DNA of 64,000 bases from Spartobacteria bacterium (GTDB lineage: Bacteria; Verrucomicrobiota; Verrucomicrobiia; Chthoniobacterales; UBA10450), in NCBI GenBank assembly GCA_003167365.1, contig PMTM01000006.1, positions 516,391 through 580,390 on the forward strand, read 5' to 3'. The position numbers and the translations under genes were made by a program. Of this stretch, positions 9,047-15,436 are shown in pieces. The notes beneath the pieces are model-generated. The model searched no databases. It had not been told where the DNA came from and saw only the letters and a list, made by a program, of their open reading frames with translations. The stretch's first letter is position 1, and each line of letters opens with the position of its first letter.

Positions 9047-11146
9047 ATGTCCGCTGAGGAAAAATCAGAACTCGAGTTAGAAATTGCCCACATCCTGTTC
9101 ATCGACACGGTGGGCTATTCCAAACTGCTAATGAACGAGCAGCGCGAGCTGCTGGACCTGCTGAATCAGATCGTGCGAAACACGGAGTGCTTTCGCAGCG
9201 CTGAAGCAGCGGGGAAATTAATTCGGTTACCCACGGGAGACGGCATGGCGCTCGTGTTCTCGGACAATATCGAAGCTCCGCTTAAATGTGCATTGGAGAT
9301 CAGCAAAGCGCTTCTGGGTTATCCGCAATTACCGGTCCGGATGGGCATTCACACTGGCCCAGTTAGCCGTGTGGTGGACGTGAACGATAGGACAAACATT
9401 GCTGGAGCAGGGATCAACATCGCGCAACGGGTAATGAACTGTGGCGACGGCGGGCACATTCTTTTGTCGAAACGAGCGGCCGAGGACCTGGTTCACTACC
9501 GGCATTGGCAGCCGTATTTGCATGAGCTCGGTGAGTATGAAGTGAAGCATGGAATAAAGCTCAACCTGGTAAATCTCTGGAACGAGGAACTGGGGAATCG
9601 CGAAATCCCGAAGCATCTCAAGCAATTTACGCAGGAACAAGCCGTAGCGGCTGCCGCCCGCGATGCTTCTCGTCGCCGCAAGTTGAAGATGGCGATCGCC
9701 TCATCCGGTCTTCTGATTTGTGTGGCGACGGCTGCATTTTTCTTTCTGCCACGTGCGTCCACTAGAGCGGCCGAGCGTTCAATCGCCGTGCTGCCATTTG
9801 TCGATCTCAGCCAGAGCAAGGATCAGGAATATTTCAGCGATGGAATTACCGAACAGATTATCAATTCCATCTCCAAAATTCGTGGATTGTTTGTCGTCGC
9901 GCGGACCTCAGCATTTGCTTTCAAAAATAAAAATGAGGACATCCGCGAGGTTGGCCGACAGCTTCATGTAAGTCATGTGCTGGAAGGAAGCGTAAACCGC
10001 GGCACCGGTAAGGTGCGGGTCGACATCCGTCTGGTTGATGTCACCAACGGTTATCAGCTTTGGTCGGAGACGTACGACTCAAACGACCAGGATGCCTTGT
10101 CCTTACAAAGTGACGTCGCGCAAAAAGTGGCGGGAGCGCTCCAAGTAGAGCTGCATTTGGCGGACGCGAAACAAATTGAGAAACCGGTTACGCGAGATCC
10201 GGAGATCTACGACTTGTATCTGCGCGGACGCTATTTCCTGAACAAGCGGACGACTGATTCGATTCAAAAAGGACGCGCACTTTTCGAACAGGCAGTGGCG
10301 AAAGACGCCGGCTTTGCATTGGGACACGCTGGAATCGCCGATTCGTATCTCTTGCTTGGCAAGATCGGCGCAATTACGGGTCAAGAAGCAGCGGCGCTGG
10401 CTTGGCCCGAAGCGTCATCAGCGCTCGCCATCGACGATCAGTTGGCCGAAGGCTATGTTTCGCGTGGAATTTTGCTGACCGATTTCGAGTGGAATTGGTC
10501 AGCCGCCGAGGAGGACTACCGCAAGGCGCTCGCGTTGGATCCGAACAGTGCCGCGGCGCACAATTGGTACGCCCGGCATCTCGCGCAAATCGGCCGCTTC
10601 GAGGAAGCGCTCCGGGAGGTTGCCGCGGCCGAAAAACACGATCCGCTCTCACCGGCGATTCAGGTGACAAAAGCAAAAATTCTTTTCGTATCGCGACGCT
10701 ACGATCAAGCGATTCATCCATGCCTCACGGCGCTCGAGTTAGAACCAAACTTCTCGTCGGCATTTTCCCAACTTGGACAGTCTTATGTCCACCTTGGCGA
10801 TTATCCCAATGGGATCGAAGCAGTGAAAAAGTATGTCGAACTCTCTGCAGGCACCGGTTGGGCGAAGTTGGAATTAGCTTACGCCTACGCCGTCGCCGGG
10901 AATAAGCAGGAGTCAGACAGGATCGTCGAGGAAGTGACCAAACGTCCCGGGCAATTCTCGCCCTATGATATGGCGACCATCCGCGCCGCCTGGCACGACA
11001 ATGCCGGCGCGCTGGCCTGGCTGGAAAAAGCTGTCGAGCAACGCTCGGTGGATGTTATTTGGATCAGGGTCGATCCGAGACTTCATAACGTCCAATCTGA
11101 CCAGCGCTTTCGCGAAATTTTAGCTCGCATGGTCCCGCGCCGCTGA
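9047..11146 (+). CDS. Membrane class III nucleotide cyclase with TolB-like and TPR domains
   Basis: Residues 10-180 form a class III adenylate/guanylate cyclase domain with the metal-binding Asp20 (FIDTVGYSK) and Asp65 (LPTGDGMALVF). A single membrane helix lies at about 217-237. A periplasmic FlgO/TolB-like domain follows (SIAVLPFVDLS..., about 243-370), then TPR-type helical repeats to residue 699. The layout suggests outside signals are read by the TolB-TPR part and converted to cyclic nucleotide in the cytoplasm; whether it makes cAMP or cGMP is not clear. The gene at 13070 is a close paralogue with the same order of domains. Confidence 0.85.
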   Translation: MSAEEKSELELEIAHILFIDTVGYSKLLMNEQRELLDLLNQIVRNTECFRSAEAAGKLIRLPTGDGMALVFSDNIEAPLKCALEISKALLGYPQLPVRMGIHTGPVSRVVDVNDRTNIAGAGINIAQRVMNCGDGGHILLSKRAAEDLVHYRHWQPYLHELGEYEVKHGIKLNLVNLWNEELGNREIPKHLKQFTQEQAVAAAARDASRRRKLKMAIASSGLLICVATAAFFFLPRASTRAAERSIAVLPFVDLSQSKDQEYFSDGITEQIINSISKIRGLFVVARTSAFAFKNKNEDIREVGRQLHVSHVLEGSVNRGTGKVRVDIRLVDVTNGYQLWSETYDSNDQDALSLQSDVAQKVAGALQVELHLADAKQIEKPVTRDPEIYDLYLRGRYFLNKRTTDSIQKGRALFEQAVAKDAGFALGHAGIADSYLLLGKIGAITGQEAAALAWPEASSALAIDDQLAEGYVSRGILLTDFEWNWSAAEEDYRKALALDPNSAAAHNWYARHLAQIGRFEEALREVAAAEKHDPLSPAIQVTKAKILFVSRRYDQAIHPCLTALELEPNFSSAFSQLGQSYVHLGDYPNGIEAVKKYVELSAGTGWAKLELAYAYAVAGNKQESDRIVEEVTKRPGQFSPYDMATIRAAWHDNAGALAWLEKAVEQRSVDVIWIRVDPRLHNVQSDQRFREILARMVPRR

Positions 11147-11218
11147 GTCCACGTAAAATCGAGATAAAGCTTGTCTTCTTGAGAACCGACCCATCTAATT
11201 GCATCGGAGGTTCCCAAT

Positions 11219-11560
11219 ATGGCTGCAAAGAAAACAACCCGTAGAAAAGCAAAGACTTCGCGAAAGGCGAAACGACCCGGATACGCTTGTCCAAACCCCG
11301 GTAAATCACTCGGTTTAAAGGCGATCATTCACAAAATTCTAAACGACCCTGCATTTGCTAGTTTCATCCGCAAGCAGTTGTGCGCCGCTTATCATGGCGA
11401 CAAAGATGCCACTAAGTGTGTCGAGTCTTACTTTGGTGGACCCAGCAATGCCGAACTGGATGAGCTTTGCATTAACAACCCGAGTATAAGAAGCCTCCTA
11501 ATGAAGTGCACAGAGCATGGCCTGCTCATCAATGCCGTTGCCGTGTACGGCCATTCCTGA
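11219..11560 (+). CDS. Small Cys-containing protein, candidate RiPP-type substrate of the adjacent lyase/kinase
   Basis: No family is recognised with certainty. The 113-residue protein has a Lys/Arg-rich start (residues 3-19), a helical-looking middle (LKAIIHKILNDPAFASFIRKQL, 33-54) and a Cys/Ser/Thr-bearing C-terminal half. Cysteines are at 24, 55, 67, 84 and 97. The NDPAF stretch recalls leader regions of large RiPP precursors (Nif11/NHLP type), but the similarity is weak. An excellent ribosome site (GGAGG, 8 bases upstream) supports translation. The lanthipeptide-synthetase-like gene begins 35 bases downstream, so this is the obvious candidate substrate. Confidence 0.6.
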   Translation: MAAKKTTRRKAKTSRKAKRPGYACPNPGKSLGLKAIIHKILNDPAFASFIRKQLCAAYHGDKDATKCVESYFGGPSNAELDELCINNPSIRSLLMKCTEHGLLINAVAVYGHS

Positions 11561-11595
11561 GAACGTTAGAAGGGTTTTCCAATTTACAAATAATT

Positions 11596-12882
11596 GTGCG
11601 GCGGCCGTCGCGACATTGGCTCGCGCTGGTAAAAAAGCTCCATCGCTCTGACGGCAGTTGGTGCTATTCCCGACGCGCGCGTCCGGAGGATCCGGCCCAA
11701 GGCTGGAAAATCCACGTTTCGGCAACGGTTGTTTCCGCCGGGGAAATCTTGGCCCGGGTATATCCGATTTTGCGCAGGCGTGACGCGCTTTTTAAGGTTC
11801 CATGCCGGCTCGAACTTTTGATGTCCATGAACTCGGGCATTTCCGATTTTGCGCAGATCGGAAAATTCCTGACCGTTTACCCGCGCTCTACTGACGAGGC
11901 CGTTGCTCTGGCCCGTGAGCTGCACCGCGTCACGCACGGGTTGGCTGCACCGCGAATCCCATTTGATGAGCAGTACCGCCGGAATAGCCTGGTCTATTAT
12001 CGCTATGGTACATTTCGCGCATCGTCGAAGAATGATTATGGCGTAGTTCGCGGTCCGACCGGAAGGCGCTATCTGGATCGGCGCGCACCGGGGAAAGCCA
12101 TCCCGCGCTGGGTGGTCGATCCTTTCAAAAAACTGCACGAAAAACTTTCAAAATCAAAGGGCCCGATCGGCAAAGATTTCCTGGCCTTCAAAGCGAAAAT
12201 GCAACGCGGCAAGGGAGGCGTTTACGAAGCGGTCGATTTATCGGTTTCGCCTGCGCGAGTAGTGATCATCAAAGAAGGCCGCCGGCACGGAGAGACGGAC
12301 TGGAACGGGAAGGACGGATACGCGCGGGTAATGAACGAAGCTCGCGTTCTTCGCTTATTGCGCAAGGTTGGCCTGCCGGTGCCGGAAATTTTTCGTGAAT
12401 TCGTGCAGAATGGGAAACGTTATCTCGTGCTCGAAAAAATTCCAGGGCGGTCCTTAATCCCGTCAAATCGAATGCAGCCTGTGAACATTTCCTGGCGCCG
12501 AGCGGCGAAAATTCTGAAGCGGATCGAACCGCTTCTTTCGAAAATACATGGGGCGGGCTGGGTCTGGCGTGATTGCAAACCGTCGCACATTTTTGTTCAT
12601 CGTGGTCAACTCCGGCTGATTGATTTTGAAGGCGCGTGCCCAATCGGCGATACCTCAGCGTTGCCTTGGGGATCTCCCAATTACGTGCCCGAAGTTTATC
12701 CCAAGAAATTTCCGCGGTATGCCGGAACGCTGGAGGACGATTACGCGCTGGGTGTGACTGCTTTTCAATTTGTCACGGGAAAGTTTCCGCCCCGCACATC
12801 GCGCGGACGGGCCATTTTTTACCAACGATGCGGATGTCCCGAATCTTTGCGGACCCAGATCGAATCTTTGCTTAATTTTTAG
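11596..12882 (+). CDS. LanKC/LanL-like lyase-kinase protein without a cyclase domain
   Basis: From the GTG at 11596 (428 residues) the first 150 or so residues match the phospho-Ser/Thr lyase part of class III/IV lanthipeptide synthetases. GWKIHVSA (residues 36-43, with the K-x-H pair), IGKFLTVYPRS and YYRYGTFR are all present. A kinase fold follows: GKGGVYEA (about 205), the likely ATP-binding Lys in VVIIKEG (about 226), the catalytic Asp in VWRDCKPSHIFV (about 326, with His where Asn is usual) and LRLIDFEGA (DFE instead of DFG, as in LanKC). The protein ends there, so the C-terminal zinc-dependent LanC cyclase is absent. The start is uncertain; the frame is open back to 11506. Confidence 0.75.
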   Translation: MRRPSRHWLALVKKLHRSDGSWCYSRRARPEDPAQGWKIHVSATVVSAGEILARVYPILRRRDALFKVPCRLELLMSMNSGISDFAQIGKFLTVYPRSTDEAVALARELHRVTHGLAAPRIPFDEQYRRNSLVYYRYGTFRASSKNDYGVVRGPTGRRYLDRRAPGKAIPRWVVDPFKKLHEKLSKSKGPIGKDFLAFKAKMQRGKGGVYEAVDLSVSPARVVIIKEGRRHGETDWNGKDGYARVMNEARVLRLLRKVGLPVPEIFREFVQNGKRYLVLEKIPGRSLIPSNRMQPVNISWRRAAKILKRIEPLLSKIHGAGWVWRDCKPSHIFVHRGQLRLIDFEGACPIGDTSALPWGSPNYVPEVYPKKFPRYAGTLEDDYALGVTAFQFVTGKFPPRTSRGRAIFYQRCGCPESLRTQIESLLNF

Positions 12883-13069: not shown

Positions 13070-15436
13070 ATGTCCGCTGAATCCAAAGTCAATCTTCGGC
13101 TTGAAATAGCACATGTGCTGTTCATCGACATCGTGGGTTACTCCAAGTTGTTGATCAATCAGCAGAGCGAGTTACTCCGGGAGTTAAACGACATCGTGCG
13201 TGGGACGGCCCAATTCCTTTCGGCGGAGGCGGAAAGCAAATTGGTGCGGTTGCCCACTGGCGATGGGATGGCGCTGGTTTTCCGCAACAGCCCGGAAGAG
13301 CCTACGCGTTGCGCTTTGGAGATTAGCAAGGCCCTCAAAGCTCATCCGGCACTGCAGGTCCGGATGGGCATTCACAGCGGACCGGTCAACGAAGTACCTG
13401 ATGTCAATGAACGGGCGAACATGGCGGGGGCAGGAATTAACATTGCGCAGCGGGTGATGGATTGCGGCGATGCGGGCCACATCCTGATGTCAAAACATGT
13501 CGCCGAAGATCTGCAGCACTATTCTGAATGGCGACCCTACCTCCATGATCTCGGTGAGTGTGCAGTAAAGCACGGCGAGATCATTTCCGTTGTTAACCTT
13601 TACACGAGCGATCTGGGCAATGCGGCGCCGCCTCAGAAAATTAATCAGGCCAGGCAAAACCGAGCCGGTACTTTAAGGAACGTTGCCTTCGGGCGCCGCA
13701 GAAATGCCATTCTACTTGGCGCGTCGGCTCTGGTGATCCTGGCGGCGGTCGGTTTTTTCCTTCTGCCACGCGCCTCGGCCCACAAGATCGACAAGTCGAT
13801 CGCGGTGCTTCCGTTTGAGAATCGAAGCGACGAAAAGGAGAACGCCTACTTTGCTGACGGTATCCAGGACGATATTCTGACGAATCTCTCGAAAATCAGC
13901 GACCTCAAGGTGATCTCTCGCACCTCAGTCATGTCCTATCGAGGGAAGACGCCGAATGTGCGCGACATCGGTAAGGCGTTGGGCGTCTCCACCATTCTCG
14001 AGGGCAGCGTCCAGCGTTCGGGTAACCGCGTCCGCGTGAATGTACAGTTGATCGACGCGACCACCGACCGACACATTTGGGCGAATGATTACGATCGCGA
14101 TCTCACGGATGTTTTTGCCATTCAAACTGATCTCGCGCACGAAATCGCCAATGCGCTCCAGGCAAAACTCTCTCCTGCGGAAAAAGCGCAGATCGAGCGA
14201 AAGCCAACTCGGAATCCCGATGCGTACCTTCTTTTTGTGCAAGCGCACGATCTGTTCACGCGCCCGGACAGGTTTCGGGAAGATTCGACAAAGGCCGCGG
14301 AGCTTTATGAAAAAGCTACCCAACTCGATCCGGATTTTGTCCTGGCCTACGCGATGCAGAGTATCGTCGAGAGCTGGATTTATCACGGCTACGATCCTTC
14401 ACCAGCGCGCCGCGACCAGGCGCGCACACTGGCGGACAAAGCATTGAAATTGCAACCTAACCTTCCGGAAGCGCATCTCGCGCTCGGCTATTGTTATTAT
14501 TATGGCGAACTCGATTATGAACGTGCGCTGGCCGAGTTTGCCATCGCTCAACGCGGATTGCCCAATGCCGCCGATGTTTATGTGTCGATCGCTGCGATCG
14601 AGCGCCGTCAGGGCAAATGGGAGCAATCGACCAAGAATTTCGAGAAAGCAGTATCGCTCAATCCGAAAGACCCGTTTTTGCTGCAAAATCTCGCGATCAA
14701 CTATATAGCGACGAAAAATTATGAGGTCGCGGCAAAAACGGTGGATCGCGGAATTGAAATCGATCCACATTCATTCAGCTTGCGCGCGATACGGGCGAAG
14801 CTTGCGATCGATTGGAAAGGCGATCTAAGCGTGACCGAGCGCGAGCTCGAGCATGTCCCGGCGGGAGTGGATCCCGAAGGCCTCGTTACCCTCGCTCGTA
14901 TTAACTTCGCGATCTTGCAGCGAAAATTTTCAGATGCTCTCGCGATCCTGGAACAGACGAATCTGGACGCATTTCACGGAGAAAGTGCGGTGCCAATGCC
15001 GAAATCAGCAGTGGAAGGCAGTATTTATTTTTACATGAACGATCAAGCCAAGGCGCGCCCAGCGCTCGAACGCGCGCGTCCAGTTTTGGAGCAATCCGTG
15101 CGCGAAGCTCCAGACAGTGCCGCACGCCACGCCGAGTTCGGCGCAATCCTGGCGGCGCTGGGACGGAAGGAAGAAGCGATTCGTGAAGGCAAGCGCGCGG
15201 TCGAGCTGTTGCCCGAATCCAAAGATGCGTTGGAGGGCCCGATGATGACACTCGCGCTTGCCCAAATCTATGCCTGGACGGGCGAAAACGAGGAGGCGCT
15301 GCGGTTGCTCGAGCATTCGCTTTCCAACCCGGACGGAATCACAGCGCCAGATCTCAAGCTCGATCCGGCTTGGGACCCGATTCGCAAAGATCCGCGCTTT
15401 CAAGCTTTGATTGAAAAGTACAGTGCGAAAATTTAG
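13070..15436 (+). CDS. Membrane class III nucleotide cyclase with TolB-like and TPR domains (second copy)
   Basis: The order of parts is the same as in the gene at 9047. A cyclase domain (Asp20 in FIDIVGYSK, Asp65 in LPTGDGMALVF) is followed by a membrane helix at about 222-240, a TolB-like domain starting SIAVLPFENRSDEKEN (about 245) and a longer TPR array up to residue 788. The cyclase halves are very similar between the two copies, while the TPR halves have drifted. This suggests the same output with different inputs. The gene sits at the end of a duplicated block and overlaps the start of the next gene. Confidence 0.85.
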   Translation: MSAESKVNLRLEIAHVLFIDIVGYSKLLINQQSELLRELNDIVRGTAQFLSAEAESKLVRLPTGDGMALVFRNSPEEPTRCALEISKALKAHPALQVRMGIHSGPVNEVPDVNERANMAGAGINIAQRVMDCGDAGHILMSKHVAEDLQHYSEWRPYLHDLGECAVKHGEIISVVNLYTSDLGNAAPPQKINQARQNRAGTLRNVAFGRRRNAILLGASALVILAAVGFFLLPRASAHKIDKSIAVLPFENRSDEKENAYFADGIQDDILTNLSKISDLKVISRTSVMSYRGKTPNVRDIGKALGVSTILEGSVQRSGNRVRVNVQLIDATTDRHIWANDYDRDLTDVFAIQTDLAHEIANALQAKLSPAEKAQIERKPTRNPDAYLLFVQAHDLFTRPDRFREDSTKAAELYEKATQLDPDFVLAYAMQSIVESWIYHGYDPSPARRDQARTLADKALKLQPNLPEAHLALGYCYYYGELDYERALAEFAIAQRGLPNAADVYVSIAAIERRQGKWEQSTKNFEKAVSLNPKDPFLLQNLAINYIATKNYEVAAKTVDRGIEIDPHSFSLRAIRAKLAIDWKGDLSVTERELEHVPAGVDPEGLVTLARINFAILQRKFSDALAILEQTNLDAFHGESAVPMPKSAVEGSIYFYMNDQAKARPALERARPVLEQSVREAPDSAARHAEFGAILAALGRKEEAIREGKRAVELLPESKDALEGPMMTLALAQIYAWTGENEEALRLLEHSLSNPDGITAPDLKLDPAWDPIRKDPRFQALIEKYSAKI

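Follow-up and report, generated by a model that had tools for sequence, protein, structure and literature searches.

Class IV lanthipeptide synthetases of the LanL type (VenL, CuvL; NF038150) and class III synthetases of the LanKC type (RamC, ThurKC; NF038151) share a lyase and kinase architecture that is completed by a LanC cyclase domain. Class V systems (LanK and LanY; cacaoidin, rosins) likewise dehydrate by means of a kinase and a phospho-lyase and carry no LanC domain on the same enzyme, the two activities being divided between an APH-type kinase and a HopA1-type lyase, separate enzymes of unrelated types (PMC9486802, PMC12291118), and class Va lanthipeptides involve no LanC at all (PMC12291118). 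Clusters with a stand-alone kinase and lyase were noted in a 2014 survey (PMC4159009). Published mining of classes III and IV required a LanC domain (PMC7268733), and systems in which a fused lyase-kinase occurs without a cyclase would therefore be missed. No description of such an enzyme was found in the open-access literature and, because the search was confined to that literature, its novelty is provisional.

The window, a 64,000-nucleotide stretch from the genome of a soil bacterium of the Chthoniobacterales, encodes an enzyme of this kind at 11596-12882 (forward strand, as for the precursor gene and the upstream cassette gene described below), a protein of 428 aa from a GTG whose use as the start codon is uncertain. 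The initial annotation had assigned class III/IV lyase and kinase hallmarks to this protein, and profile searches bear this out, finding a lyase domain besides the kinase rather than a generic kinase only: the RamC_N phospho-Ser/Thr lyase domain (PF25816, E 5.2e-41) spans residues 16-179 (11641-12132), the protein kinase domain (PF00069, E 8e-15) spans 12178-12879, and the motifs GWKIHVSA, LRLIDFEGA and CKPSHIFV are all present in the translation. The NCBIfam LanL profile matches with 304 bits over profile positions 3-396 of 851 only and the LanKC profile with 230 bits over positions 39-422 of 833 only. The protein thus ends, as had been proposed, where the cyclase domain should start, and the cyclase half is missing. 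An AlphaFold2 model of the enzyme (mean pLDDT 75, with low confidence over much of lyase residues 124-190) has CuvL and ThurKC as its top PDB matches in Foldseek, and the protein looks like a lanthipeptide synthetase from which the ring-forming third has been removed.

Active-site residues were compared with those of ThurKC, whose lyase residues have been probed by mutation (PMC10604976). ThurKC K65, H67, K94, K117, D152, R163 and R191 correspond to K38, H40, K67, K90, D124, R136 and R163 of the window enzyme (alignment to 8sao), and these seven are invariant in an alignment of 13 enzymes, except that D124 is Glu in one. ThurKC K108, which is needed in that enzyme (PMC10604976), is replaced by Gly81. 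In the kinase domain, K226, E248, D326 and the DFE motif (D343-F344-E345) are retained, whereas the catalytic-loop Asn is replaced by His331. The initial annotation had singled out this His in CKPSHIFV as needing attention; it is indeed present, but it is a trait of the whole Chthoniobacterales clade and not an oddity of this copy, being shared with all 11 close relatives aligned, whereas the outer members of the group (L044, L057, L059, L061 and L062) have Asn. Because the replacement is clade-wide, the kinase is probably adapted rather than broken. The window enzyme therefore possesses a RamC_N/OspF-like lyase, except for the K108 position, and a DFE Ser/Thr kinase in which the loop Asn is His. 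It differs from LanKC in its missing cyclase domain, the Gly at the K108 position and a LanKC score below that of LanL, from LanL also in its kinase-loop His and in a precursor of another family, and from class V in that its lyase is of the RamC_N type and fused to the kinase in one polypeptide. In function the system would be expected to resemble the dehydratase portion of class III/IV synthetases. It does not have their defining cyclase feature, however, and is therefore not filed as LanL or LanKC.

The enzyme gene is preceded by 35 bases, and before these by a small gene at 11219-11560 that starts with ATG behind a GGAGG ribosome-binding site (11206-11210) and encodes 113 residues with five Cys, in agreement with the initial annotation. 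Its product has no Pfam or NCBIfam match, including to the NHLP clan (NF038399, TIGR03793), outside whose curated cut-off it falls, and no PDB fold match was found for it; assignment to a known precursor family was rejected on these grounds. The AlphaFold2 model is all-helical (mean pLDDT 75.6), and residues 32-87 (11312-11479) form a leader-like helical region, which the annotation had also anticipated and which profile-profile matching supports. In an alignment of 16 homologous precursors, a helical leader is common to all, and the only invariant columns are Met1, Cys97 and Thr98; no other Ser/Thr or Cys column exceeds 9 of the 16. The earlier emphasis on five Cys is accordingly narrowed to Cys97, which is conserved as part of the Cys97-Thr98 pair (11507-11512), the proposed modification site. 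The tail that follows, EHGLLINAVAVYGHS in the window (11513-11557), is hypervariable and is the proposed core. A conserved leader combined with one fixed hydroxyl residue makes the small protein a plausible substrate of the kinase-lyase, and its gene has the features of a RiPP precursor gene, as judged by its position next to a putative modifying enzyme, its conserved leader and a variable core with modifiable residues.

To survey related genomes, as the annotation had suggested, the precursor and enzyme were sought among members of the same family. The precursor profile matched in 13 of 83 family genomes, each with a single gene or two tandem copies, always directly upstream of the enzyme, and the precursor was absent from the enzyme-free genomes among the 83. 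With precursor P0002 as sole query, matches were obtained in 10 of 98 relatives, every one of them enzyme-bearing. The small gene is thus neither missing from nor distant to the enzyme in these relatives and, because the pair is kept where enzyme identity is 55-65%, the 113-aa gene is judged to be a real partner of the enzyme and not a chance neighbour. The enzyme itself is present in 19 of the 83 genomes, a count that takes in the clade-2 enzymes described below and fragments. The sole clade member whose enzyme first appeared to be without a precursor, G051, carries one as an in-frame extension at the 3' end of the upstream TolB-TPR gene (L037:4-978), with the core KCSNNTKFYMLNFSRYI and Cys-Ser in place of Cys-Thr. 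Such a change from Thr98 to Ser, seen once, is in keeping with modification of the hydroxyl.

The two genes may be translated unequally. All 16 precursors have ATG starts as chosen (manually in L031a and L040b), most of them after a GGAG-like site. Across 13 enzyme loci, no in-frame ATG occurs before the conserved GWK, and the candidate starts are GTG, TTG, CTG, ATT, ATC and ATA; the L031 and L039 enzymes have no ATG, GTG or TTG upstream of GWK. The uncertainty at the window enzyme arises because its frame is open further upstream of GTG 11596, with a GTG at 11506 and ATA/ATT codons just before 11596. At some loci, the enzyme start and the precursor stop would share bases (TTGA in L036, CTGA in L041, ATTAA in L033 and L034). 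Non-ATG and overlapping starts of this kind suggest weak, coupled translation that would limit the amount of catalyst in relation to its substrate. Fusion of precursor and enzyme through programmed frameshifting or readthrough was rejected, given that the frame relation of the two genes varies among relatives.

The absence of LanC extends beyond the enzyme. No match to LANC_like (PF05147) was found in the whole genome (3.13 Mb, rated 100% complete; a control genome gave matches), and LanC is also absent from 16 of the 19 other enzyme-bearing genomes; the matches in the remaining genomes, G010, G026 and G032, sit on contigs other than that of the cassette. A LanC acting in trans from the same genome was rejected for the window system, as none was found there. 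The cassette probably directs a ribosomal peptide modification in which the small gene supplies a precursor comprising a helical leader and, at the C-terminus, a short core beginning at the invariant Cys-Thr, and the enzyme acts as a bifunctional dehydratase guided by that leader. The kinase domain would phosphorylate Thr98 of the core and the lyase domain would eliminate the phosphate to give dehydrobutyrine (Dhb), with no dedicated cyclase involved. Since neither enzyme nor genome offers a LanC cyclase, the product would be either an open-chain unsaturated peptide or one closed spontaneously, by addition of the adjacent or a nearby Cys to Dhb. Retention of the lyase residues, adjacency of the precursor, a conserved chromosomal position, one deletion remnant, and the Thr-rich counterparts and supported LanC-less clade described below all count in favour of dehydration. 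Counted against it are the His at the kinase-loop Asn, which could weaken or alter activity, the Gly at the K108 position and the poorly modelled residues 124-190. In contrast to usual lanthipeptides, the cores of this clade also have only a single conserved hydroxyl, and a secreted peptide would not usually be encoded in a block that has neither protease nor exporter.

When GTDB genomes were scanned, relatives without a LanC domain were identified in Chthoniobacterales, Verrucomicrobia subdivision 3, the cyanobacterium FACHB-502 and a Propionibacteriales MAG. Upstream of the cyanobacterial (L057) and actinobacterial MAG (L061) enzymes, which, like the Salipiger enzyme described next, belong to the same LanC-less clade as that of the window, lie small genes encoding Thr-rich cores such as NTTTTTTFTATTTTLVCTFTTTTTFTTTTTD. 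A Salipiger plasmid (L119) encodes an enzyme 42.6% identical to the cyanobacterial one together with two tandem precursors, whose cores ACTCNSTTVTTTTSPICTGTTTTGSG and ACTCHSRTVITTSTPLCTTTTTTTSA start with ACTC and have three Cys. The first of these tandem precursors is unannotated, a different overlapping ORF being annotated in its place (L119:6149-8521). The leaders of the Thr-rich precursors match the window family with an hhalign probability of 96.2 (E 2.7e-9) in an alignment confined to the leader, indicating that the leaders of the two groups are homologous. The cyanobacterial leader, homologous in this way to that of the window, also matches the NHLP clan profile NF038399 weakly (E 2.3e-4; 21.2 of 40 bits, below the curated cut-off).

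The Thr-rich cores bear on whether a ring is formed. It is conceivable, although somewhat unlikely, that dehydration of Thr98 is followed by LanC-independent closure of a thioether ring, in which Cys97 or a different Cys adds under substrate control, and that the product is therefore a lanthipeptide. Cys97 is conserved as strongly as Thr98, the Salipiger cores have three Cys, and Lan formation in class Va rosins is under substrate control and is accelerated by their kinase and lyase (PMC12291118). However, conservation does not extend to the remaining Cys of the precursor, Thr-rich cores have a single Cys for many Thr, and neighbouring Cys and Dhb would give a strained seven-membered ring. To our knowledge, no such ring occurs in lanthipeptides, and it would be unusual. 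If the peptides are instead left ring-free, Dhb would be the final functional group, many Dhb would be present in Thr-rich cores, and the Thr-rich relatives would rank among the most heavily dehydrated predicted peptides.

More distant LanC-less enzymes occur on plasmids of Firmicutes. Streptococcus salivarius plasmid pSsal-NU10 (L128:2386-4350) encodes a RamC_N-kinase annotated as 'protein kinase', which is accompanied by genes for an ABC transporter and for an 83-aa peptide (tail SGAHSSTCHIVTPDLESA), making the locus a candidate RiPP system; a Planococcus plasmid carries a copy interrupted by an IS. On a midpoint-rooted tree, 19 LanC-less enzymes form one clade (support 100/99) apart from full-length LanKC and LanL, and the Firmicutes pair joins this clade with weak support; two branches of the tree are long. 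The LanC-less system is rare: among 387 Verrucomicrobiota genomes only the window system was found (1/387), and a survey of 386 cyanobacterial genomes returned only the known LanC-less enzyme plus one full-length enzyme. That the cassette is the relic of a decaying LanL or LanKC after cyclase loss is very improbable. Decay would fit its patchy distribution (19 of the 83 genomes of the family), the remnant seen in G054 and the copies elsewhere that are split or interrupted by an IS, but the LanC-less enzymes form a deep, supported clade across several phyla, keep intact active sites at 55-65% identity, and have precursors conserved in parallel. The G054 remnant (G054:C64, L046), in which a deletion joins the start of a nucleotide cyclase gene in frame to the last 90 enzyme residues, is a sign of cassette loss.

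More tentatively, the cyclase-less fused lyase-kinases may be a rare, widespread and ancient lineage that makes ring-free dehydropeptides, a RiPP class separate from lanthipeptides I-V that LanC-anchored mining has missed. If dehydration without cyclisation does occur, the two halves of lanthipeptide biosynthesis would be separated in nature, which would bear on which half arose first or was lost, and an enzyme of about 430 aa could serve as a small, leader-guided tool for putting dehydrobutyrine into peptides.

The initial annotation had also drawn attention to flanking cyclase-TolB-TPR genes as possible regulators; of the two, only the upstream one travels with the cassette. The upstream gene (9047-11146; 699 aa) encodes a class III nucleotide cyclase domain, a TolB-N-like domain and TPRs by Pfam, and its orthologue lies directly upstream in enzyme-bearing relatives (49-64% identity). 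Enzyme-free relatives in which the whole block could be read have no orthologue-level match to it (at most 36%, common to the downstream paralogue). Because of these orthologues, the G051 fusion and its absence from enzyme-free blocks, the upstream gene is considered the third member of the cassette, where it may serve in regulation or peptide handling. In several relatives a membrane segment replaces the cyclase domain at its N-terminus. Its TolB/TPR part matches TIGR04510, a putative peptide modification system cyclase, with 38 bits, far below the cut-off of 400, which generic TPR similarity may explain. The cassette occupies a fixed chromosomal site between SAM synthetase/ArsR-methyltransferase on one side and a phosphodiesterase-like gene, FAH and exbB on the other. 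Seven enzyme-free relatives have the same block with the downstream TPR gene but without the precursor, the enzyme or the upstream orthologue, and in an eighth only the SAM synthetase/ArsR-methyltransferase end was found; the downstream cyclase-TPR gene was thus rejected as a cassette member. The cyclase domains of both window genes (9047-11146 and 13070-15436) may be active, since the characteristic Asp, Asn and Arg motifs (FID, GDG, NIAQR) are retained in both. No exporter or protease gene is present in the conserved block. Phage records gave no match, and a phage origin was rejected.

This gene content bears on a further explanation, in which the activity of the enzyme is limited to phosphorylation, or lost altogether, and the small protein serves as a regulatory substrate or an adaptor instead of giving rise to a peptide product. 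A cyclase-TPR gene in the cassette suggests signalling, and the clade-wide His and the lack of a nearby exporter or protease point the same way. The explanation is nevertheless improbable, as the retained lyase residues are needless for a plain kinase, the hypervariable tail after Cys-Thr and the tandem duplication resemble RiPP cores, and the usual Asn is present in the enzymes of those relatives whose cores are Thr-rich.

Other peptide genes were observed alongside related enzymes. A Haematobacter plasmid (L121:2336-2776) encodes a full-length, LanC-bearing synthetase and a precursor with two near-identical core repeats (ELAGCDVTCTSSCGATCAQSCGYTTN). The enzymes of clade 2, a second verrucomicrobial LanC-less clade, lie near short ORFs of 44-76 aa in varied orientation that share LSDLTPKKDxKGG and have variable tails (L044:6355-6799, L059, L060, L089, L090, L091), and these perhaps represent a different precursor family. 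A second, broken copy of a clade-2 enzyme lies on the opposite strand of the same contig at L059:10490-11660.
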